Assembly (NCBI GenBank): GCA_023249255.1
Contig: JAHFCY010000111.1
Coordinates: 1-10,300 of the forward strand
Length of the DNA: 10,300 nt
Direction: 5' to 3'
From: Candidatus Lindowiibacteriota bacterium
GTDB taxonomy: Bacteria > Lindowbacteria > 2-12-FULL-62-27
Positions 1-10,300 of this stretch are shown here, in pieces. The notes beneath the pieces are model-generated. The model was not told the origin of the DNA and made no database searches. It worked only from the letters and a program-made list of their open reading frames with translations. Position numbers and translations under genes: made by a program. Every line of letters starts with the position of its first letter. Position 1 is the stretch's first letter.

Positions 1-868
1 TGATGAGCGCGACGCCCGTCACGCCGTAGGTCTCGAATCCATCGGCGGTGGGGCCGACCGAATCGCCCGCGTTGTCGCCCGTGCAGTCGGCGATGACGCC
101 GGGGTTTCGCGCGTCGTCCTCCTTGATTTTGAAAACAATTTTCATGAGGTCAGAGCCGATATCGGCGATCTTGGTGAAAATGCCGCCCGCGATACGCAGC
201 ACTGCGGCGCCCAGCGATTCGCCGATGGCAAAGCCGATGAAGCAGGGTCCGGCCCACGCGCCGGGGATGAAGAGCAGGATGGCGAGCATGATCACCAACT
301 CGACGCTGATGAGAAGCATGCCGACCGACATCCCTGCCTGGATTGGAATCGCGTAGATCGAAAACGGTTTGCCGTAGAGGCTGGCGAAACTCGTGCGAGA
401 GTTGGCGTAGGTGTTGATCCGGATGCCGAACCACGCCACCGCGTAGCTTCCGAGAATGCCGACGATGGTGAAGAACACGATGACCGAAACCTGCGTCACC
501 GTCATGTGGCTCAAGAGGCCGAAGTAGACGATGATGATGGAGCAGATGAAGGCAAATAATATGGAGAGGAACTTGCCCTGCGTGATCAGGTAAGTCTTGC
601 AGGTTTCGTAGATGAGATCGGAAATGTCGCGCATCGAGCGGTGGACGGGAAGGTTTCGGACTCTGGCCATCATCGCAAATCCGAAGACCATGCCAAGGAC
701 GCAGATGACAAGGCCGATCAGGAGGAGATTGTGGCCTGTCATGCCAAGAAAGGACTGCGACGCAAGATCAGGCAGAACCAGTTCCGCCTCGCTTGCCGAC
801 GACGGCGAAATCCAGCCGAACGCCAAAATGGAGAGAACCAAGAACCAGAGACTCAAGCGCATTTTCAT
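1..868 (-). CDS. hppA: Membrane-bound ion-translocating pyrophosphatase, N-terminal part (cut by left edge)
   Basis: The product hydrolyses pyrophosphate and uses the energy to pump H+ and/or Na+ across the cytoplasmic membrane. The reading frame on the minus strand is open from the ATG at 868 to the window edge (289 codons; the family is usually about 650-800 residues). It begins MKMRLSLWFLVLSILAFGW, a hydrophobic first segment resembling a signal peptide or first membrane helix, followed by further hydrophobic helices. The substrate-site signature is clear: D-x3-D at residues 236/240 (ADIGSD), EDDARNP at 250-256, then D261, D265 and D269 in a D-x-x-G-D-N-x-G-D pattern, and TADGFETYG just after. 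These match the Mg-pyrophosphate ligands of the family. The residues that decide K+ dependence lie in the missing C-terminal part, so the transported ion cannot be told. A second in-frame ATG lies at 862; neither start has a clear Shine-Dalgarno sequence. The gene is transcribed away from the uptake cluster and is probably functionally separate. Confidence 0.95.
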   Translation of the reverse strand, partial: MKMRLSLWFLVLSILAFGWISPSSASEAELVLPDLASQSFLGMTGHNLLLIGLVICVLGMVFGFAMMARVRNLPVHRSMRDISDLIYETCKTYLITQGKFLSILFAFICSIIIVYFGLLSHMTVTQVSVIVFFTIVGILGSYAVAWFGIRINTYANSRTSFASLYGKPFSIYAIPIQAGMSVGMLLISVELVIMLAILLFIPGAWAGPCFIGFAIGESLGAAVLRIAGGIFTKIADIGSDLMKIVFKIKEDDARNPGVIADCTGDNAGDSVGPTADGFETYGVTGVALI

Positions 869-988
869 CAGAGCGCAGAAGAAAAACAAAAACCGGGCGG
901 AAAGTCAACGAAAGGGGCGAAGAAATTGCACAAATCGCTCCATCGAAGTATTGCGCGGGAGAGGACGAAAGGTTAGACTGACTTTTCC
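869..988. promoter_or_regulatory. Divergent intergenic region with weak promoter-like elements
   Basis: This is the only gap between divergent genes, so any promoters for hppA and for the plus-strand operon should lie here or inside the neighbouring genes. On the minus strand TTGACT (908-903) is followed after 17 bases by TTTTCT (885-880): a good -35 with a poor -10. On the plus strand TTGCGC (951-956) is followed after 17 bases by TAGACT (974-979), which would place the transcript start a few bases before the ATG at 989. Both matches are weak and could be chance. No inverted repeat operator or terminator hairpin was seen. Confidence 0.25.
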
Positions 989-1189
989 ATGCACCAGTTC
1001 ACAGGCAAGGTCATTCTGATTTTGATACTCATCGCATTTTTTCTCGGGGCGCTTGTGGCGGCGCGCTGGCCGAATTACACCCTTGAGCACAATATCCGCT
1101 CGAACCGATCCTACTATCCGTCCGTCAAAGTCGGCGTGCCCGACGAAGCCGAAGACCCGCAGGAGGAAACCGGTGCCCAAGGGTACTGA
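989..1189 (+). CDS. Small single-pass membrane protein, unknown function
   Basis: The 66-residue product is not recognised. It has a short polar start (MHQFTGK), one strongly hydrophobic stretch at about residues 8-24 (VILILILIAFFLGALVA) and a polar tail ending in an acidic region around residues 51-62. This fits a small bitopic membrane protein. An in-frame TAG at 974 means the ATG at 989 is the first possible start. No good Shine-Dalgarno sequence precedes it (AAGG at 969-972 is too distant). Its stop at 1187-1189 lies 17 bases inside the next gene, whose ribosome binding site is within this frame, an arrangement typical of translational coupling. That overlap and the clean membrane segment are the main reasons to think it is real. 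It could anchor or partner the nuclease or channel encoded downstream, but this is a guess from position only. Confidence 0.6.
   Translation: MHQFTGKVILILILIAFFLGALVAARWPNYTLEHNIRSNRSYYPSVKVGVPDEAEDPQEETGAQGY
1162..1166 (+). promoter_or_regulatory. Strong ribosome binding site that sets the nuclease GTG start
   Basis: GGAGG (within AGGAGGA, 1161-1167) lies six bases before an in-frame GTG at 1173. No comparable site precedes the in-frame ATG codons at 1053 or 1287. This selects GTG 1173 as the start of the tandem nuclease and gives a 17-base overlap with the upstream small gene. Confidence 0.75.
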
Positions 1190-4100
1190 ACAGCCCCGAA
1201 CTTCAAGCCGACGGACGTTCAGTTTCATCTCGCTGGCAAAAAAAATCCGGGACGATATCCGTTTTTTTCTGTCAAATCCCGTCCCGATGAGTTTTTCCAA
1301 ACTCAGCACGTACCAGACCTGCGCCTACAAATATAAACTCATATATATAAATGGCCAGCCCGGAAAGCCGAGCCCCCACTTGTCGTTCGGCACGATCATG
1401 CACAACACGTTTTACGAATTCGAAAGCATCCCGGCTGGGGCGAAACGCGAATACGCGGATCTCGAACGAATTTTCGAGAAAAACTGGGACGGCGAAATCG
1501 GCTCCTACCGCCGCAAGTGGGGCAGGAGTCTCTACGAAGTCGCCGCGGCGGAGAAAAACACGCCGGCGGATGACCTTGAGAGGCAGGCCCGCGAAGACGG
1601 CATCCTCATGCTGAAAAATTACTGGCGGGAGTCGCAAACCAATCCGAACAAAGTCCGCGGCGTGGAAAAATGGCTTGGCGGAGAAATCGGTCATTATCAC
1701 GTCACCGGCCGGCTGGACCGGCTGGATCAGCGGCCCGACGGCGCCTACGAGATCATCGACTACAAAACCGGCCAGCGCATCTACACGGAGGACACGCTCA
1801 AGGACTCCTCGCGCGGCTACGGATTGCAGGCCGGGCTGTATTATGAAATGTGCCGGGAGGCCTGGCGCGGCCGGGTCGACCGGTTCGTTTTCAAATATCT
1901 TCAAAAACGCCAGAGCCTGACGGAACATCTCATGACGCAGTGGATGGACCGAGTCCGGGACGCGGCCCGGCTGGCGCTTGGGGCGGGCGCGGCGGGCGCG
2001 CAGACGCCGGACGCGGCGGACCTCGCAAAAACGCTTGCGGAGGAAGCGGACCGCGCGATCCGGGAAAAACTGCCGGACAAACTGACGAAGAAAGTCATCG
2101 CCGAATTCCGGGAGAATCGGGTCCGGGACGCGACCAAAAAAATATCGCTCGACGAGGAAGAGGAGATGTTGACGTCCCTGCCCGAGCCCGAGCGCAGGCG
2201 GGGCCGGTTGTTTTTGAAAACGTTGAACAAGACCATCGAGCAGAAAATCAACGAGGACATCGCCCCCCGATCGATCCGGGACGCCGCGCCACAGGCAACG
2301 GACGACGTTCAGGCGGTCATCCGCGAGGTCCTCAAGGGATATGACGGGGGCCGGACGGCCGCGGCAGTCTCGGCGTTTCTGGCCGGCATCGCCGGAGAAT
2401 TTTCCGCGCGGATGCGGGCCGTGAACTGGCCGGAACTGGCAGGATCCGAACGCGACCGGATCACGGACGAACTCATGGAGATTTTGCATCGCCGCGAAAT
2501 CAAGGACCGCACGGCGAATTTTTTCCGCACGGCCGACGCGGGCGAGCTGGCAAAGAAGCTCTCGAAAGACATCGAGGCGATTTCGGAAATCCGGTCCGAC
2601 CGGCGCGTTGAACTCGTGCGACACGTCGTCTCCAAACTGGCCTCATCCTTTACGCAGCAGTTGGACGTGTATCCAGCCGACGAAATCGCGCGGCTCGTTT
2701 CTGAATCGGCGCCGGACGGATTTCTCACGGACGACCACACGCGTCGCGCGGACGCCACGCTGGATGACCTGGTCAAGCGATCCGGCGTCACGGACAAGCA
2801 GTCAGGCCGGACTCTGACCGCGGACGCCATCGCACTCGCCCGGAAAAAAACACTGCTTCAGCCGCTGACGAAAGCCGTCACCCTCGTTGTCCACGCCTGC
2901 GTCGAATCGGTCATTTCAGACATGCTCGCCGAGCGGTCCGACGTTCTCACGCCGCAGTTGCGCGAATCGTACCGGAAATTTCTCGCCGCGCTCGGTGATC
3001 CGGCCGTGGCGCGGGCGGCCGCGCAAAAAATGGCGGCGGCCATGGCGCGCGGACTTTTTCACGACATCTATTTCAAACAGGGCGTTGTGCCGGTCGTCGA
3101 ACATGTGACGCGGCTCTTTGACCGGCCGGAGGTCATGAAAATCATGGCGAAACTCCAGCCGGACCTTTCCGAACCGGACCGGAGGAAGCACGCTCAGCGG
3201 CTGATCGAAAAACTCGACTGGCGCGACGTCGAATATCTGCTTGACGAGGCGCTCGGGCCCGGATTCGCCGCCTGGCAGACGCTGATCCTCGACCTGGCCA
3301 TGCCGGCCGCGCAGTCAGCCGTGTCGGCGGCATCGACGCCGGAGTCCCTGGACGGGATTTTGCGCGATGCCGAAACGCTTTTTGAGGGCCGCCTGATCCG
3401 CGTCACGACGGTTGACGTCAACGTGCCCTACACGCCCCAGACGCGCGACAACGTGATTCGCGCCATCGAGGCGGTTGAAAACGGCATTCGCCGGAATGAT
3501 TTCACGCCCGCCCCCGGGGCGCTTTGCGGCTGGTGCGAGTATCAGGCCGGATGTCCCGCGTGGTGCAAATACCGGGACATGTGCAAGGACGTCTGCAAGG
3601 ACGAATACAACTGCCGGAAATGGTTTGACGAAAAAACAGGAAAGTTGGTCGAGGGCAAGCCGGCCGGGATGACGCACGAAGAATACCTCCGGCGCGTGGC
3701 CGAAAAATTCGAGGTGACCGATCGATCGCTCTTCCGGCTGAGTTTTTCGAAGATGAACACCTACGAGATGTGCCCGATGAACTACCGGAAGCTCTATCTG
3801 GACCACGTGGCGCCGAAGCCCAAATCCTTTTTCTCGATCGGCCTCTCGTACCATCAGACGATGGAGGATCTCTACGCCTACACAGGCCCGAAAAAACAGC
3901 CGAGCCTTAAGAAGCTTCTGGATCTCTTCAAGAGAAAATGGATTTCGGCCGGCTATCGGAGCCGGGAGGAGGAGGATTTTAATTTCCGCCGGGGCCTTCG
4001 GATGTGCGAGGATTATTACGCCGAATTCATCGACGGAAAATACAAGCCGGCCGGGGCGGCCGAGGACTATTTCGAGTTCCGGGTCGGCCGGACGCTTCTG

Positions 4101-4634
4101 TGTGGATTCATCGACCGCGTCGACCTCAACGAGGACGGCACCATCACCATCATCGACTACAAGACCAACCCCAAGCTCTACACGCAGGAAGAGCTGGACG
4201 AGGACCAGCAGATGACGATGTATTATCTGGCCGCGCGGGAAGGAAAGATTTCGAGCACGAACTACAAGCCCGTCGACGTGAAAAAATTCGTTTTCCAGTT
4301 CGTGAATTTCTGCAAGGACCTCGTGACATACCGGAAACCCTCCGACCTGGAGGCCCTGACCGAGCGGGTCACGCATTTCACGGCCGAGATGGAGTGGCGG
4401 CAGAAATTGTACAAAAATTCAAACTTCGACCCGCGAGCCGGGATGCTTCTCTTCCCGCCACAGGACAACAAATACTGCCAGTCCTGCGACCACCATCATC
4501 TCTGCCCGCTCAAAACGGACATGACATGGGTCACCGAAATCCAGTCGAAGGGCGTGCAGTATGAGGACGGGACGGACGCGAACGAGTTTTCGGAAGGGGA
4601 GACCGAGCGGCTGGCAAAGGTGGATTCCGAGTGA
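1173..4634 (+). CDS. Tandem RecB/AddB-like PD-(D/E)XK nuclease with two Fe-S-type modules
   Basis: The 1153-residue protein carries two PDDEXK_1-type nuclease modules and no helicase motifs. Module 1: C50 (TYQTC), H77, D182 (GRLD), D196-Y-K198 (IIDYKTG), Q219-x3-Y223, then C785, C788 and C794 (C-x2-C-x5-C). Module 2: C867 (TYEMC), H894, D981 (GFID), D995-Y-K997 (IIDYKTN), Q1013-x3-Y1017, then C1102, C1105 and C1111 with the same spacing. In AddB, Cas4 and related enzymes, one early and three late cysteines bind a 4Fe-4S cluster, and the H, D, D-x-K and Q-x3-Y residues form the metal-dependent active site, so both modules look competent for cutting DNA. Module 1 is split by a long, charged, mostly helical region (about 255-740) that I cannot assign. 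Four more cysteines (798, 804, 808, 814) follow its cluster. The start is GTG 1173, chosen from the GGAGG at 1162; ATG 1287 (M39) is a weaker alternative that still keeps all motifs. The gene overlaps the ComEC gene by four bases. No signal peptide is evident, so it is probably cytoplasmic. A role in DNA uptake or repair is inferred. Confidence 0.88.
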   Translation: MPKGTEQPRTSSRRTFSFISLAKKIRDDIRFFLSNPVPMSFSKLSTYQTCAYKYKLIYINGQPGKPSPHLSFGTIMHNTFYEFESIPAGAKREYADLERIFEKNWDGEIGSYRRKWGRSLYEVAAAEKNTPADDLERQAREDGILMLKNYWRESQTNPNKVRGVEKWLGGEIGHYHVTGRLDRLDQRPDGAYEIIDYKTGQRIYTEDTLKDSSRGYGLQAGLYYEMCREAWRGRVDRFVFKYLQKRQSLTEHLMTQWMDRVRDAARLALGAGAAGAQTPDAADLAKTLAEEADRAIREKLPDKLTKKVIAEFRENRVRDATKKISLDEEEEMLTSLPEPERRRGRLFLKTLNKTIEQKINEDIAPRSIRDAAPQATDDVQAVIREVLKGYDGGRTAAAVSAFLAGIAGEFSARMRAVNWPELAGSERDRITDELMEILHRREIKDRTANFFRTADAGELAKKLSKDIEAISEIRSDRRVELVRHVVSKLASSFTQQLDVYPADEIARLVSESAPDGFLTDDHTRRADATLDDLVKRSGVTDKQSGRTLTADAIALARKKTLLQPLTKAVTLVVHACVESVISDMLAERSDVLTPQLRESYRKFLAALGDPAVARAAAQKMAAAMARGLFHDIYFKQGVVPVVEHVTRLFDRPEVMKIMAKLQPDLSEPDRRKHAQRLIEKLDWRDVEYLLDEALGPGFAAWQTLILDLAMPAAQSAVSAASTPESLDGILRDAETLFEGRLIRVTTVDVNVPYTPQTRDNVIRAIEAVENGIRRNDFTPAPGALCGWCEYQAGCPAWCKYRDMCKDVCKDEYNCRKWFDEKTGKLVEGKPAGMTHEEYLRRVAEKFEVTDRSLFRLSFSKMNTYEMCPMNYRKLYLDHVAPKPKSFFSIGLSYHQTMEDLYAYTGPKKQPSLKKLLDLFKRKWISAGYRSREEEDFNFRRGLRMCEDYYAEFIDGKYKPAGAAEDYFEFRVGRTLLCGFIDRVDLNEDGTITIIDYKTNPKLYTQEELDEDQQMTMYYLAAREGKISSTNYKPVDVKKFVFQFVNFCKDLVTYRKPSDLEALTERVTHFTAEMEWRQKLYKNSNFDPRAGMLLFPPQDNKYCQSCDHHHLCPLKTDMTWVTEIQSKGVQYEDGTDANEFSEGETERLAKVDSE
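4618..4624 (+). promoter_or_regulatory. Ribosome binding site and stop-start overlap coupling nuclease to ComEC
   Basis: AGGTGGA differs by one base from the ideal AGGAGGA and ends six bases before GTG 4631. The sequence GTGA at 4631-4634 holds both the ComEC start and the nuclease stop, a classic translational coupling junction. The two proteins are therefore probably made together. Confidence 0.65.
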
Positions 4635-7600
4635 CGCCCGAGGCGCGCGCGGGCGGGACGAACAGGCCGGCACGGCGGGCCGGCGAGACGGTCGGCGTTT
4701 TTCTGAAACTGATTTTCACCAAAATCGTCGAGTATCTTGAAGTCTGCGCCCTGCCGTATCTGGCCGGCATTGCGTCGGCCGTCGCGTTCGAGTTGACGAT
4801 CCCGGCGGGACTGTGGAAGGCGTTCGAAGCGATCGGAGTTATTGTGACGGTCGCACTCCTCTACGCGCCGATCGCCATCCTTCACGCGGCGCACATCCGA
4901 AATCTTAAAAAACGCCGGACCGACGCGAGCATCCTCTTTTTTCTCGAAGACGGCCTGTTCGAGCATCGCAACACCCTCGGCCTTGCCGTCATGGCCGCCG
5001 TCCTTTCGTTCGTCTTCGGCATCGTCAATTACAATTTCGCTGTCGACACGTCCGATCCGCATCATCTGGCGCGATACGTCGTGAAACCCTGGGAATCCAA
5101 TCCGGTCGCGCTGGAAGGCAAGATCATCCGCGAGCCGGAATTTCGCGATTTCAACGTCTGGCTCTACATCCAGCCGACTGTTGTAGACCGACAGCCGGTG
5201 TCGAAGGGCCTGGTGCTGGTCAAAGTCGCGCGGACGGTTGAGGGATTCGAGGATTTCGAATACGGCCAGTACGTCCGGGTCCGCGGACAGCTTCGGGAGC
5301 CCGACCCGGCGACGAATCCGGGCGGATTCGACTACAAGCGCCACTTGAACAACCGGAACATCTTCGCCGTGATGAGCGTCAACAAAACGGAAAATATCGA
5401 GGATCTCGGCCGGAAAGAATCCAACGCGCTCTTTGACGTATCTCTCTGGGTGAAAAAAAGATTCCTCGCGATCATGAAACAGACCCTGCCCTATCCGCAA
5501 TCATCGTTTCAGGGCGCGATCATTTACGGCCTCCGGGTGGGCGTGCCGCAGGAACAGCTTTTCGAATTCAAATGGGCCGGGATGTCGTGGCTCCTCGTCG
5601 TAGCCGGCGCCCACCTTCTCATGGTGTATCTGACGCTCAAGATGATTCTCGAGAGCGTCCGGCCGAATCCCAAGCTTGCGTTCTGCGCGCTGTTTGTTCT
5701 GCTGATGATATTTTTGATTCTGACCGGCATCAATCCGCCGACCGTGCGGGCGTTCATCATGATCATGCTGTATGAATTCACGAGAGTATTTCTGGGCCAG
5801 GACGTGCGGGCGGCCGTCCGAAGCGCGATCGGCATCGCGGCGTATCTTCTGCTCGCCTCGCACTTCTTTCCGTTTTTTTCGCCGCTCATTATTTTTGAGC
5901 CGACCGTCACGCTGTCCTTCGGCGCGGTCCTGTCGCTCGTCTACCTCTCGCGGCCCATCGAGCATCTTCTGCGCCGCCACTGCTACGGCCTGACCAGCGT
6001 CGTGATTCTTGCCGGACTTGCAACCTCGCTCACCGCGATGAGCGTGCTTCGGCCGCCCACGATGTCGGTGCTCGCGGCCCAGCAGGCGCCCATCTGGATC
6101 ACCATGATCGTTCTGGCCGCCCTGACCTGCCGGCTCAACAACCGCTACCGCGGGCAATACCGGTTCGACCAGATTTATCTCGGCTACAATGACGCGTCGA
6201 TGTTTCAGGGATGGAGGCGCTGGATTCACCCGACGTTTCTCACATACAACCGCCTGCCGGGCTGGATTCTCGCGTTCGCCGGCGCGCAGGTCGCGATCCA
6301 GTTCGGAATGATGCTGCCGCTGTCGAGTTGGTATTTTCAGCGCTCACCCGTCGGGGGCTTTCTCGCCAACGTCATCGCTTTTCCCACGCTCGGCGTGATC
6401 ATTCAGGTCGGTCTGATCGCCGTTCTGGCCGGGATGATTCCGGTGATCGGCTTGAAGCTCGCGTTTCTTCTGAACGCCGCCGATTTTCTGGGCATTCAAC
6501 TTCTCATGAAACTCGCGCACTACAGCAAGGTTGTTTTCCCGTATCCGATGGCGATGAAACCGACCGGGCTTCAAATTCTGCTGTATTATCTGATCCTGTT
6601 CGGTCTCATCCTGTACGACCGGATTTTTTATGCGGGACCACAGGGCTATCTGACGCTGAAAGAAGTGCTCGACCAAAAAGTCATCCTGACCAAACGTCCC
6701 GTCTACGCGCGGATTCGCTCCTGGCTCGCCACGCCGCGGAGGAAACAACTCTTTGCGGCCGCTTCCATTTTCATCTGCGGCTCGATGGCGATGGGCATGG
6801 CGCGAGGCAGGACGCTCGATCATCTCAAAGTCGTCGTCCTTGAGCTGGCCGATGGTTCCGGCACGATCATCGAAACGCCGGGCGGGCGCCGGATCCTTGT
6901 CGACGCCGGCAAAGTCGACTCCCGCGGCATGTTTGACGTGGGCGAGCGGACGGTCGCGCCGATTCTTCTCGCGGAACAGATCGAGCGTCTCGACGCCGTG
7001 GTGGTGACATCCTTGAAACCTTCGAACATCGGCGGCATGCCATTCATTCTCGAAAATTTTACGGTCGGGGCCGTCCTTGTTCCCTTCGATCCCGCCGTGT
7101 TTCTGGGCGAGGACACATTCACGTCCAAAATCTACGCCCGCCTCGGCGGCTATTCGAGCGGGGGAAGCGGGACGAAGCACGCGATCGAGACGGTCGAGCG
7201 GATGCGCGGGATCGTCCGGGAACGGCATATACCCGTGGCGCGGATCAAGGCCGGCGACGTTTTGCTTCGCGGTGGCGGAATCGACATCGACGTTCTCAAT
7301 CCAGATTCCGAGCCGGTCGAGACGGATGAGAACGTCATGGGAAACAACTGCGCCGTTCTGCGCCTGAAGTTCGGACCGAACACGCTGATTTTGGGAGGCG
7401 ACATCGACGCGGAGGGCGAGGCAAACGTGCTGAAAGAGCTCGGACCGGACGCGCGCGCAAGTTTCGTGCTGATTCCATCGCATGGGAGCGCCGACGCCGG
7501 TGATGATTCCTTCATTGCGGCGATCCGGCCCGCTCACGCGGCCGTTCAATACAAGGCTCCCCCGTGGCGGCGGGCCGAAGAAGGCAAGGACCCCGTCACA

Positions 7601-7807
7601 GTTATCCTTCAAAAATATGCGAACGCCGGATCGCAAGTCTATCGGACCGATCTCATGGGCGCGATCATGGCCGAGGCGTGGCCCGACGGAAGATTTTCGG
7701 TGACGCCGGCCCTGGCGACGCCGATCCCGGACATCACCGAGCAAACCGAATCGGACACCGACGTCGAGGAACGTTCGGCGTTGAAAAGCGAGGGCGCGGG
7801 TCTCTGA
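4631..7807 (+). CDS. comEC: ComEC/Rec2-type DNA uptake channel with degenerate MBL domain
   Basis: ComEC forms the inner-membrane channel that brings single-stranded DNA into the cytoplasm during natural transformation. The 1058-residue product has the family order: N-terminal membrane helices (about 38-138), a DUF4131/OB-like region (about 160-260, with NPGGFDYKRHL), the Competence membrane domain (about 290-700) and a C-terminal metallo-beta-lactamase-like domain (about 730-1030). The channel motif usually reading HLLAVSGLH appears as SWLLVVAGAH (H328 kept, the earlier His replaced by W320), and the later PPTVRAFIM keeps R373. In the C-terminal domain the usual GQGD is ADGS (about 740-743), and the usual THxDxDHIGG is TSLKPSNIGG (793-802), so the metal-binding His and Asp residues are gone. 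The usual HHGS is SHGS (950-953); D924 of GGD remains. The protein is longer than most ComEC proteins (roughly 750-850 residues), partly through extra sequence after the first helices and around 500-545. It starts at GTG 4631, overlapping the nuclease stop by four bases. ComEC identity is strong; whether it works in transformation is not shown. Confidence 0.9.
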   Translation: MTPEARAGGTNRPARRAGETVGVFLKLIFTKIVEYLEVCALPYLAGIASAVAFELTIPAGLWKAFEAIGVIVTVALLYAPIAILHAAHIRNLKKRRTDASILFFLEDGLFEHRNTLGLAVMAAVLSFVFGIVNYNFAVDTSDPHHLARYVVKPWESNPVALEGKIIREPEFRDFNVWLYIQPTVVDRQPVSKGLVLVKVARTVEGFEDFEYGQYVRVRGQLREPDPATNPGGFDYKRHLNNRNIFAVMSVNKTENIEDLGRKESNALFDVSLWVKKRFLAIMKQTLPYPQSSFQGAIIYGLRVGVPQEQLFEFKWAGMSWLLVVAGAHLLMVYLTLKMILESVRPNPKLAFCALFVLLMIFLILTGINPPTVRAFIMIMLYEFTRVFLGQDVRAAVRSAIGIAAYLLLASHFFPFFSPLIIFEPTVTLSFGAVLSLVYLSRPIEHLLRRHCYGLTSVVILAGLATSLTAMSVLRPPTMSVLAAQQAPIWITMIVLAALTCRLNNRYRGQYRFDQIYLGYNDASMFQGWRRWIHPTFLTYNRLPGWILAFAGAQVAIQFGMMLPLSSWYFQRSPVGGFLANVIAFPTLGVIIQVGLIAVLAGMIPVIGLKLAFLLNAADFLGIQLLMKLAHYSKVVFPYPMAMKPTGLQILLYYLILFGLILYDRIFYAGPQGYLTLKEVLDQKVILTKRPVYARIRSWLATPRRKQLFAAASIFICGSMAMGMARGRTLDHLKVVVLELADGSGTIIETPGGRRILVDAGKVDSRGMFDVGERTVAPILLAEQIERLDAVVVTSLKPSNIGGMPFILENFTVGAVLVPFDPAVFLGEDTFTSKIYARLGGYSSGGSGTKHAIETVERMRGIVRERHIPVARIKAGDVLLRGGGIDIDVLNPDSEPVETDENVMGNNCAVLRLKFGPNTLILGGDIDAEGEANVLKELGPDARASFVLIPSHGSADAGDDSFIAAIRPAHAAVQYKAPPWRRAEEGKDPVTVILQKYANAGSQVYRTDLMGAIMAEAWPDGRFSVTPALATPIPDITEQTESDTDVEERSALKSEGAGL

Positions 7808-7813
7808 AGATTC

Positions 7814-8668
7814 ATGGACAAAGCCAAGCTTAAAGAGCTGATTGCCCGCATCGAGAAACTGCCGACCCTGCCGGTCGTCGTTTCGCGCATCAACGCGATG
7901 GTGCAGAATCCCAAGACGTCCGCGAAGGAGGTCGGCGCGGCCATCGCATCCGATCCGTCGCTGTCAGCCAAGGTTCTCCGGCTCGTCAACTCCGCCTATT
8001 TCGGATTCCCGTCTCAAATTTCTTCCGTGACGCACGCAACGACCATCCTCGGATTCAACGCGATTCAGAATCTCGCGCTCAGCGCCACCGTCTTTCAGAT
8101 GTTCGGAGAGGGCGGCGCCGAGGATCTCTTCGACCGCCGGCGTTTCTGGGAACATTCCCTTGGCGTCGGCGTGATTTCGCGTATTCTTGCGGAAAAATCG
8201 CGCTACCCCGACCGCGAGGAGGCGTTCACGGCCGGCCTGATCCATGACGTCGGAAAAATCGTTCTGGACCAGTTCGTGCATGAGGATTTCATGGCGGTGA
8301 TGAACAAGGTCCGCGCCGAGGACTGTCTCCTCTACGAAGCCGAATCGGCCCTGCTCGGCCTGACCCACGCCAATGTCGGCTACATCCTGGCGCAGAAATG
8401 GAACCTCCCCAAAAAACTTCAGGACCCGCTCTCGTACCATCACACCGTCGGCCTCTCAAAATACAATCCCCAACTCACCTCGATCATCCACGTCGCCGAC
8501 ATTTTCTGCCGCGCGTTCAAAATCGGACATGGCGGCGACAACAAAATCCCCTCGCTGGACAAATCCAATGTCCTCGAGCTGAAACTCGCGCCGCCCGACA
8601 TCGAACAGCTCCGGGACCAGACGGAAAAAGAAATCGAGAAGGCCGAAGTGTTTCTGGAGATGATGTGA
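7814..8668 (+). CDS. HDOD domain signalling protein with intact HD site
   Basis: The 284-residue protein is an almost pure HDOD domain (PF08668), a helical output or scaffold domain related to HD phosphohydrolases and often found with two-component or cyclic-dinucleotide signalling. The opening LPTLPVVVSRI and the segment with LRLVNSAYFG and SVTHATTILGF (about residues 16-85) are typical of HDOD. Unlike many HDOD proteins it keeps a full set of candidate metal ligands: H114 (WEHS), H144-D145 (GLIHDVGK), H185 (THANVG), H209/H210 (YHH) and D229 (HVADIF). This pattern resembles active HD and HD-GYP enzymes, so hydrolase activity is possible, though no HD-GYP motif is seen. It has no membrane segment and is presumably cytoplasmic. 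It starts six bases after the ComEC stop behind a weak GAAG (7806-7809) and is followed one base later by a histidine kinase gene, a common type of partner. Confidence 0.9.
   Translation: MDKAKLKELIARIEKLPTLPVVVSRINAMVQNPKTSAKEVGAAIASDPSLSAKVLRLVNSAYFGFPSQISSVTHATTILGFNAIQNLALSATVFQMFGEGGAEDLFDRRRFWEHSLGVGVISRILAEKSRYPDREEAFTAGLIHDVGKIVLDQFVHEDFMAVMNKVRAEDCLLYEAESALLGLTHANVGYILAQKWNLPKKLQDPLSYHHTVGLSKYNPQLTSIIHVADIFCRAFKIGHGGDNKIPSLDKSNVLELKLAPPDIEQLRDQTEKEIEKAEVFLEMM
8656..8659 (+). promoter_or_regulatory. Ribosome binding site of the histidine kinase gene inside the HDOD gene end
   Basis: GGAG lies ten bases before the ATG at 8670 and within the last codons of the HDOD gene, whose stop ends at 8668. 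The one-base gap and internal binding site support co-translation of the two signalling proteins. Confidence 0.45.
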
Positions 8669-8669
8669 G

Positions 8670-10300
8670 ATGACCAAACCCGCGGCCGATACAGACCTTG
8701 CGCTCGGAGAACTCGCGCGAAAACTGGAGTCGCTCTTTGACGAGGCCGAAGCGCTGTGTGATCTCGGATTTGCGGCGAATCCCGACACGGATGTCCGCGT
8801 CGGCGCGCTGTCCGTCACCGAACGCATCACCCGCCTGATCGACCGGTTCCGCCAGCGGCTCGACGCGCAGACCGAGACGGCGCGCCTTCAGCAGGACGCG
8901 CTGGACGAAGTTTCCAAAAGCAAGGACGAAATCAGCAATCTGCGCGATCTGTCCACGGCCATCTCGCTGGCTCAGACGCGCGAGGAAATCGTCGAGCTTC
9001 TCCTCAAGATGATTCGCGACAAAATTTTCAATTTCGGCGCGGCCGCGCTGTATCAGGGGACGGATGAAATCGGATTTGAGCGGGCCGGGGACTGGGACGC
9101 GACCGGGGACGATCTGCGGGAAATCGAGCGGCAGAAAAACGCAGGGTTCATGAACTGGGTCCTGCGGTCGCACACGCCGATGGTCATGCCGGCCGAGGGA
9201 AAATATCCGACGGCGATGTACGTGCCGATGAAAGTCGGCAACCGCGTGACCGGCGTGCTCCTTCTTCTCACGGTACGGGCCGTCGACGAATTCACGCAGT
9301 CCGACCAGGACCGGCTCTCGCTTCTCTGCTCCCAGGCGGCCGTTGCGCTTGAGAACGCCCGGCTTGTCAATCAGATCATCGAGATGAAACAGTACAATGA
9401 AAATATCGTTCTCAGCCTCACCAGCGGACTTCTGGCCGTCGACCTTTCCGGCCGCGTGACCACCGTCAATCCAGCGGGCCTCGCCATCCTCGACATGGCC
9501 GGGCCGGAGATCATCGGCCGGTCCATGTCCGAGTTTGCGCCGCTGGCCGAATTTTCGAAGCTTCTCGACGACACGCTTGCCACCGGCGCGGTTCGACGAA
9601 ATGTCGAGCTGACGGCTCTGTTCGGCGAAAAAAAACTGGTTCTTGGGGCGAGCGTATCTCCGATTCTGGCGGAAGACGACAGCGTCTGCGGCGCGCTGGG
9701 AATTTTCGCCGACCTGACGCCGATCAAGATTTTGGAACAGCAGGTCAGGCGGACAGACCGGCTGGCCGTGGTCGGACAGCTGGCGGCCGGCGCGGCCCAC
9801 GAAATCCGAAATCCGCTTTCGGCCATCCGCGGCACGATCCAGCTTCTGAACCGCAAACTTCAAAAAATGCCCGACACCGAGCCGATCCTGGCGAAAACAA
9901 AATCGGTCATTGAGGAAGTCGACCGGATCAACCGCATCGTTGGCGGGATGATGGACATGTCCAAGGAAGGCGCCCTCCAGCTCGTCCGCACCTCCATCAA
10001 TGCGCTCCTTCAGGACGTCGGCTACATCGTCGAGGGAAATTTCAAAGAGGCGGGCGTGGAGCTGGAATTTCAACTGGGGGAGGGACTGCCCGAGGTCCAT
10101 GTCGATCCGGCCGAGATGAAACAGGTGTTTCTCAATCTCTATCAGAATGCCTTGCAAGCCATGAAAGATAATGGAAAACTGGTGGTCAGGTCGGTCCTGA
10201 CCAAAGACGCGGTGACCGGGAACTGGATCCGTGTTGACGTTCAGGATTCCGGGTGCGGTATTGACGAAAAACATCTGGAAAAAATTTTCGCGCCATTTTA
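8670..10300 (+). CDS. Soluble GAF-PAS sensor histidine kinase, NtrB-like (cut by right edge)
   Basis: The frame is open from ATG 8670 to the window edge (543 codons and two bases). The domain order is: a helical, probably coiled-coil N-terminus (about 8-92); GAF (about 93-235, ending QAAVALENARL); PAS (about 240-350, with GLLAVDLSGRVTTVNPAG); HisKA with the phospho-acceptor H377 in AAHEIRNPLSAIRG; and HATPase_c with the N box around 482-498 (MKQVFLNLYQNALQAM) and the G1 box DSGCGID at about 525-531, ending in the F box (IFAPF) where the window stops. All kinase residues visible are intact. No membrane helices are present, so it should sense an internal signal through GAF or PAS. The histidine region resembles NtrB, AtoS and ZraS kinases, which usually act on NtrC-type sigma-54 activators; no response regulator is in the window. 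It follows the HDOD gene by one base, suggesting a shared signalling pathway. Confidence 0.93.
   Translation, partial: MTKPAADTDLALGELARKLESLFDEAEALCDLGFAANPDTDVRVGALSVTERITRLIDRFRQRLDAQTETARLQQDALDEVSKSKDEISNLRDLSTAISLAQTREEIVELLLKMIRDKIFNFGAAALYQGTDEIGFERAGDWDATGDDLREIERQKNAGFMNWVLRSHTPMVMPAEGKYPTAMYVPMKVGNRVTGVLLLLTVRAVDEFTQSDQDRLSLLCSQAAVALENARLVNQIIEMKQYNENIVLSLTSGLLAVDLSGRVTTVNPAGLAILDMAGPEIIGRSMSEFAPLAEFSKLLDDTLATGAVRRNVELTALFGEKKLVLGASVSPILAEDDSVCGALGIFADLTPIKILEQQVRRTDRLAVVGQLAAGAAHEIRNPLSAIRGTIQLLNRKLQKMPDTEPILAKTKSVIEEVDRINRIVGGMMDMSKEGALQLVRTSINALLQDVGYIVEGNFKEAGVELEFQLGEGLPEVHVDPAEMKQVFLNLYQNALQAMKDNGKLVVRSVLTKDAVTGNWIRVDVQDSGCGIDEKHLEKIFAPF

Follow-up and report, generated by a model that had tools for sequence, protein, structure and literature searches.

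The DNA analysed here, a stretch of 10,300 nucleotides that forms one entire contig (C49; hereafter the window) of a 3.35 Mb draft genome of a Candidatus Lindowiibacteriota bacterium, encodes three successive overlapping genes: a membrane microprotein (named here YYP), a tandem PD-(D/E)XK nuclease (TNUC) and a ComEC protein whose C-terminal metallo-β-lactamase (MBL) domain has lost most of its metal ligands (Table 1). With a probability of roughly 0.6, the window can be read as carrying one of the cassettes of a separate DNA-uptake system that is built around ComEC and named here ComEC-d, in which the nuclease work is done outside ComEC and on both sides of the membrane. Judged from the sequences, its components would be an MBL fold without most metal ligands and an extra transmembrane (TM) hairpin in ComEC-d itself, YYP, a stand-alone anchored MBL protein and a TNUC without export signal; linkage, co-occurrence, ligand loss, anchoring signals and shared history are supported directly by the sequence comparisons. 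The YYP gene, the stand-alone anchored MBL and the finding that the genome has three genes of ComEC type (on C49, C112 and C157) go beyond an earlier note on this DNA, which had considered the nuclease and ComEC. The nearest relatives of the source genome are G001 and G002.

The window ComEC has Pfam scores of 89 bits for the Competence domain (PF03772, cut-off 23) and 83 bits for DUF4131 (cut-off 31.6). Pfam finds no Lactamase_B match in it, and it lies below the cut-off of the NCBIfam equivalog for ComEC/Rec2 (TIGR00361; 138.5 versus 190.05 bits). Residues 726–1036 are modelled by AlphaFold as an MBL fold (predicted local distance difference test, pLDDT, 86), for which Moorella ComEC is the best structural match (9ic4; Z 32.0, root mean square deviation 2.5, 261 aligned residues), and a sequence alignment likewise matches the domain to the nuclease domain of Moorella ComEC, which has been crystallised. 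Moorella residues H598, D600, D602 and H603 correspond to S794, K796, S798 and N799 of the window protein; SLKPSN thus stands in place of HxDxDH and four ligands are replaced, as the earlier note had claimed. Since alanine at H598, D602, H603 or D700 nearly abolishes the activity of Moorella ComEC (PMC12455585), the MBL domain of the window ComEC is strongly predicted to be metal-dead and inactive.

Table 1. Features of the ComEC-d cassette in the window.
Feature	Position	Strand	Remarks
YYP microprotein	989–1189	+	66 residues: charged short N-terminus, single TM helix, then ...SNRSYYPSV...
TNUC, tandem PD-(D/E)XK nuclease (RecB/AddB/AdnA/Cas4-type)	1173–4634	+	1153 residues, without TM helix or signal peptide
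TNUC N-terminal nuclease half	1251–1907	+	approximately residues 27–245; GRLDRLD...IIDYKTG
Helical insertion within TNUC N-terminal half	1908–3407	+	about 500 residues; low model confidence
Cysteines of TNUC N-terminal half			CGWCEYQAGC, residues 785–794, downstream of the insertion
TNUC C-terminal nuclease half	3720–4526	+	residues 850–1118; GFIDRVD...IIDYKTN; C867, C1102xxC1105x5C1111
TNUC–ComEC stop/start overlap	4631–4634	+	GTGA; TNUC stop 4632–4634, ComEC GTG at 4631
ComEC of the dead-MBL clade (ComEC-d)	4631–7807	+	1058 residues
DUF4131/OB region of ComEC-d	4931–5395	+	Pfam
Competence channel domain of ComEC-d	5522–6613	+	Pfam, two pieces
Enlarged segment within the channel domain	5915–6286	+	124 residues, two additional hydrophobic helices; other ComECs 24–57
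C-terminal MBL-fold domain	6806–7738	+	ComEC residues 726–1036; most metal ligands gone
TSLKPSN replacing T-HxDxDH	7007–7027	+	ligand mapping onto Moorella ComEC

The HxHxDH/HxDxDH motif is dead in all 22 readable TNUC-linked ComEC-d proteins, that of the window included, and sampled ComECs of other phyla mostly have an intact motif or no MBL domain. In a tree of 59 ComECs (546 columns, MBL excluded), all dead-MBL, TNUC-linked proteins fall into a single clade of 28 rows (SH-like approximate likelihood ratio test support 100), which also includes Lindowbacterial sister copies and proteins of G020, G066 and G069 without linked TNUC. Because some members of the clade have no TNUC nearby or in their genome, ligand loss is not bound to TNUC alone; on the evidence of this phylogeny it is a property of the whole ComEC-d clade, acquired before or along with TNUC, so that the 22 dead motifs do not represent 22 independent events. 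The enlarged segment of the channel domain likewise belongs to the clade (92–169 residues versus 24–57 elsewhere; the exception is G069, with 38) and adds hydrophobic helices forming a predicted TM hairpin. The UBP18-type ComEC-d genes (L085, L092, L093 and L105) encode a ComEA-like helix-hairpin-helix (HhH) inside this segment.

The tandem nuclease is intact, as had been proposed from the sequence of the window: both TNUC halves carry the DR...D-x-K core together with a four-cysteine cluster of iron–sulphur (Fe-S) type, C...CxxCx5C, and PDDEXK_1 of Pfam matches TNUC in several stretches (197 bits, cut-off 22, E 5.7e-58). Confidence in the full-length model is moderate (pLDDT 67), and the nuclease halves alone were used for this reason. 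Their nearest folds are AdnA (Z 18.9, C-terminal half), ACE1, AddB, Cas4 and Dna2, the sequence matches agree, and the AddB-like structural match covers residues 27–803 of the TNUC model. Across the family, the catalytic residues and cysteines of the C-terminal half are invariant; the catalytic core of the N-terminal half is lost in some Elusimicrobia, and the helical insertion is restricted to the window TNUC and that of G001:C28. Pfam detects no helicase family in TNUC, which accordingly lacks the same-chain SF1 helicase that serves as a criterion for AddAB/AdnAB, and the score for the NCBIfam cas4 equivalog (29 bits) is below the cut-off of 65. PHROGs returned only generic phage exonuclease matches for TNUC. 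A role in a defence system was considered and dropped, the PADLOC matches being merely generic, of Cas4 and MBL type. A hydropathy scan found neither TM helix nor signal peptide across the TNUC proteins, except for one weak peak; for this reason, and because of its Fe-S-type cysteines, TNUC is probably cytoplasmic.

A scan of the TNUC alignment against about 85,000 genomes returned 27 tandem-TNUC contigs and 53 single-domain relatives; the assemblies are draft metagenomes, and topology here is taken from hydropathy. Two contigs of one Sumerlaeota-named genome (L099 and L104), apparently the two ends of a single broken gene, were counted once. The resulting 26 distinct loci, counted besides that of the window, belong, by record name, to Lindowbacteria, Elusimicrobia/Endomicrobia, CSSED10-310, Sumerlaeota, UBP18 and unnamed bacteria. 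A ComEC gene is found on the contig at 24 of them, and at the remaining two (L094 and L101), which have no ComEC on the contig, a linked MBL gene abuts TNUC at the contig end; none of the 53 single-domain homologues has a ComEC within reach. Across other genomes, the linkage of TNUC to ComEC is far above chance. Gene order varies (TNUC-ComEC; ComEC-TNUC-MBL; ComEC-ComEA-MBL-TNUC; ComEC-(UvrD-like)-MBL-TNUC-...-ComEC2), 4-nucleotide overlaps are frequent in several of these orders, and ComEA-like HhH genes are present in several operons. The distances of ComEC-d and TNUC are congruent (Mantel r 0.85, p 1e-4), and G001 carries two separate matched TNUC/ComEC-d pairs. The earlier note had expected a nuclease family that adjoins comEC genes devoid of the metal motif, and this is what the survey bears out, linkage being neither rare nor directed to intact MBL domains; the GTGA overlap on which it built is exact in sequence and coordinates.

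TNUC might instead be a general AddAB/AdnAB-like nuclease for the repair of DNA ends, placed in an operon with comEC merely for co-expression. Its nearest folds (AdnA, AddB, Cas4 and Dna2), a degenerate UvrD/PcrA-like gene adjoining TNUC in one Elusimicrobia clade and the proximity of TNUC to pheST in family f111 are consistent with such a role. However, the linkage and co-occurrence are specific to ComEC-d over many families and the single-domain relatives are unlinked, which makes this explanation unlikely.

Several further genes lie near these operons. In the Elusimicrobia clade whose linked MBLs are dead, the genes of ComEC-d and of the dead stand-alone MBL flank one for a 574-residue UvrD/PcrA-like protein whose Walker A lysine is apparently lost (L070, 10142–11866, minus strand; equivalents at L082–L084, L087 and L089). 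Beyond the TNUC operon of L070, on its downstream side, lies a second, divergent ComEC without intact MBL (4284–6374, minus strand), preceded in this copy by an SLBB-domain gene; equivalents of this ComEC occur at L082–L084 and L086–L089. At L207 (2501–4588, plus strand), a stand-alone MBL fused to four HhH domains adjoins a UvrD helicase gene, about 4 kb from TNUC, with pheS and pheT between.

At most loci the operon includes a TM-anchored stand-alone MBL. Nearly all linked stand-alone MBLs have a single N-terminal TM helix (L081 shows only a weaker hydrophobic stretch), from which the MBL domain is predicted to lie outside. The metal motif is intact in 14 of the 21; one ligand is lost in L085, and six, from one Elusimicrobia clade, are dead. 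In the source genome, a gene of this kind stands beside the sister ComEC-d: on C112, the locus of which is cut by the contig start, a ComEC with dead MBL precedes two further genes, first a ComEA-like HhH gene and then that of a TM-anchored MBL with the motif HPHSDH. The carriers examined also encode intact exported or anchored MBLs at other genome sites, some of which may be unrelated to uptake. The third ComEC-type gene of the source genome, on C157 (L060, 1629–3776, plus strand), is highly divergent and preceded by a ComEA-like gene; an MBL domain was not recognised in it.

These anchored proteins bear directly on the suggestion that TNUC itself takes the place of the dead MBL domain in degrading the non-transported strand. 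That it is closely coupled to a metal-dead ComEC and shares a congruent history with it, and that the catalytic residues of its C-terminal half are invariant, would fit this role, but a nuclease that is probably cytoplasmic cannot easily replace an extracytoplasmic domain, an anchored intact MBL is available and dead ComEC-d proteins also occur without TNUC, so that the suggestion is quite improbable. Since TNUC is probably cytoplasmic, the anchored MBL, a putative nuclease, is probably the stronger candidate for cleavage of the outer strand. Of the division of labour put forward in the earlier note, the split between ComEC and separate nucleases is therefore supported, whereas the assignment of TNUC to the outer strand is not, given its lack of export signal, its Fe-S-type cysteines and the anchored MBL.

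YYP proteins form a family of single-pass membrane proteins of 48–85 residues with the pattern N..SN..YYP.V. Of the 32 clade members that could be read, 31 have such a gene immediately 5′ of ComEC-d or, where TNUC and ComEC are paired, of the pair; G066 is the exception. The window YYP stop overlaps the TNUC start by 17 nucleotides, identically in G001, and the codon changes between the two are of the coding type, with an excess at third positions (18/12/38). No Pfam family scores above its cut-off, PHROGs gives no match and YYP is unannotated in every library searched. A YYP-only profile scanned against 386 genomes matched in 17; the match in G029 (E 1.6e-4, within a 444-residue frame) was rejected as chance. 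That match aside, the scan reached nine previously unread genomes, where all nine matches adjoin a ComEC-d-type gene, with the motif dead wherever the C-terminus is readable. YYP and TNUC occur together in 12 genomes, from 16 positives each among the 386 (Fisher 1.7e-16; about 3.5e-12 when counted per family, with the total family number approximated), and lie on separate contigs in G135, G149, G257, G362 and G383. Relaxed selection, with ComEC-d as a decaying duplicate and its neighbours as hitch-hikers, would account for the lost metal site, the several paralogues per genome and the N-terminal TNUC halves without catalytic residues in some clades; yet the reading frames are long and intact with a purifying codon pattern, and YYP and the C-terminal TNUC site are strictly retained at about 25–30% identity, which renders decay extremely improbable.

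In the two-sided uptake system that we favour, ComEC-d would be the DNA channel of the inner membrane and YYP a small channel subunit, and the pseudo-MBL of ComEC-d would guide DNA, as has been suggested for pneumococcus (PMC8579336), or act as a docking site. The anchored MBL would cut the non-transported strand at the outer face, replacing the lost outer nuclease, and TNUC would act at the cytoplasmic exit, where it could trim or process entering DNA ahead of RecA/DprA or degradation. Nuclease work would in this way have moved out of ComEC and been split over two membrane sides.

DprA was found in all nine genomes tested, and many carriers retain a second ComEC besides ComEC-d. This second ComEC could serve transformation and leave ComEC-d as a nutrient importer whose DNA is cut on both membrane sides and not recombined, to which a cassette rich in nucleases would be suited; DprA and the ComEA-like genes argue against this, although DprA is not specific to transformation, and we consider such scavenging very unlikely. 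There is a similarly slim chance that ComEC-d, because its outer nuclease is dead, passes double-stranded DNA or both strands through its enlarged channel, in which case the two AdnAB-like sites of TNUC would process the strands inside and YYP would again be a channel subunit.

Several observations weigh against the two-sided system. The window cassette has no linked stand-alone MBL, and in the Elusimicrobia clade of L082–L084, L086, L087 and L089 the linked MBL is dead, so that the outer nuclease would there come from unlinked exported MBLs or be absent. Tandem TNUC is absent from the ComEC-d genomes G020, G069, G182, G225 and G066, and G255 and G122 have TNUC with no ComEC-d detected. The genomes are related, their counts being non-independent events, and the carriers are uncultured lineages. 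The cytoplasmic placement of TNUC is based on the hydropathy scan and cysteine motifs. Finally, the window ComEC keeps two ligands, the motif-IV aspartate D924 and the later histidine H951, and 'metal-dead' is consequently a strong prediction and not a measurement.

Outside the cassette, the window contains part of a membrane H+-pyrophosphatase gene (2–889, minus strand), divergent from it, and, immediately 3′ of ComEC on the same strand (7814–10298), genes for an HDOD protein and for a histidine kinase with GAF/PAS domains. The last two were dropped as parts of the cassette since they do not adjoin ComEC in G001.

A nuclease domain of the characterised type is missing from almost half of the known ComECs, and how the cells concerned handle the non-transported strand is stated to be open (PMC8579336). 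The deep ComEC-d clade retains the domain in a dead form, while separate nucleases accompany the channel, apparently at opposite membrane sides, and this question becomes testable through its defined genes. With YYP, a DNA channel also gains a conserved microprotein as partner, of which no description was found in the open-licence papers searched. Open-licence papers on ComEC in connection with AddB, microproteins, Elusimicrobia or Lindowbacteria likewise yielded no description of the ComEC-d system, and in none of those searched was a metal-dead ComEC clade found together with a microprotein, a tandem RecB-type nuclease and an anchored MBL of ComEC type. The earlier note knew of no description of such an arrangement; for the multi-part system none was found in these papers either, whereas split nuclease duty is in principle already known from pneumococcal EndA.

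ComEC-d shares its three-part layout and MBL fold with canonical ComEC/Rec2 (DUF4131-Competence-Lactamase_B; Bacillus subtilis, Moorella), but differs in the clade-wide loss of the metal motif, the TM-hairpin enlargement, the near-constant microprotein and the placement of nucleases on separate genes. To our knowledge, EndA is neither a PD-(D/E)XK nor an MBL enzyme. In Streptococcus pneumoniae the MBL domain of ComEC is probably inactive and a separate nuclease, EndA, is bound to the membrane (PMC12455585, PMC8579336), so that nuclease duty is split (PMC12455585), as it may be in ComEC-d; the ComEC-d operons, however, encode a TNUC that lacks an export signal and an MBL of ComEC type that is anchored. 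AdnAB and AddAB resemble TNUC in that they have two nuclease modules of the RecB family, with cysteines of Fe-S type; TNUC, in contrast, carries both on a single chain without helicase, and a UvrD-like, degenerate-looking neighbour occurs in one clade only. Cas4 and ACE1 share the nuclease fold and cysteine pattern of TNUC, which differs from them in being tandem and in showing neither a CRISPR nor an Argonaute context. HamM and further ComEC-like defence MBL nucleases (PMC12799240) are, as here, stand-alone ComEC-type MBL domains, but the protein described here is TM-anchored and encoded with ComEC.

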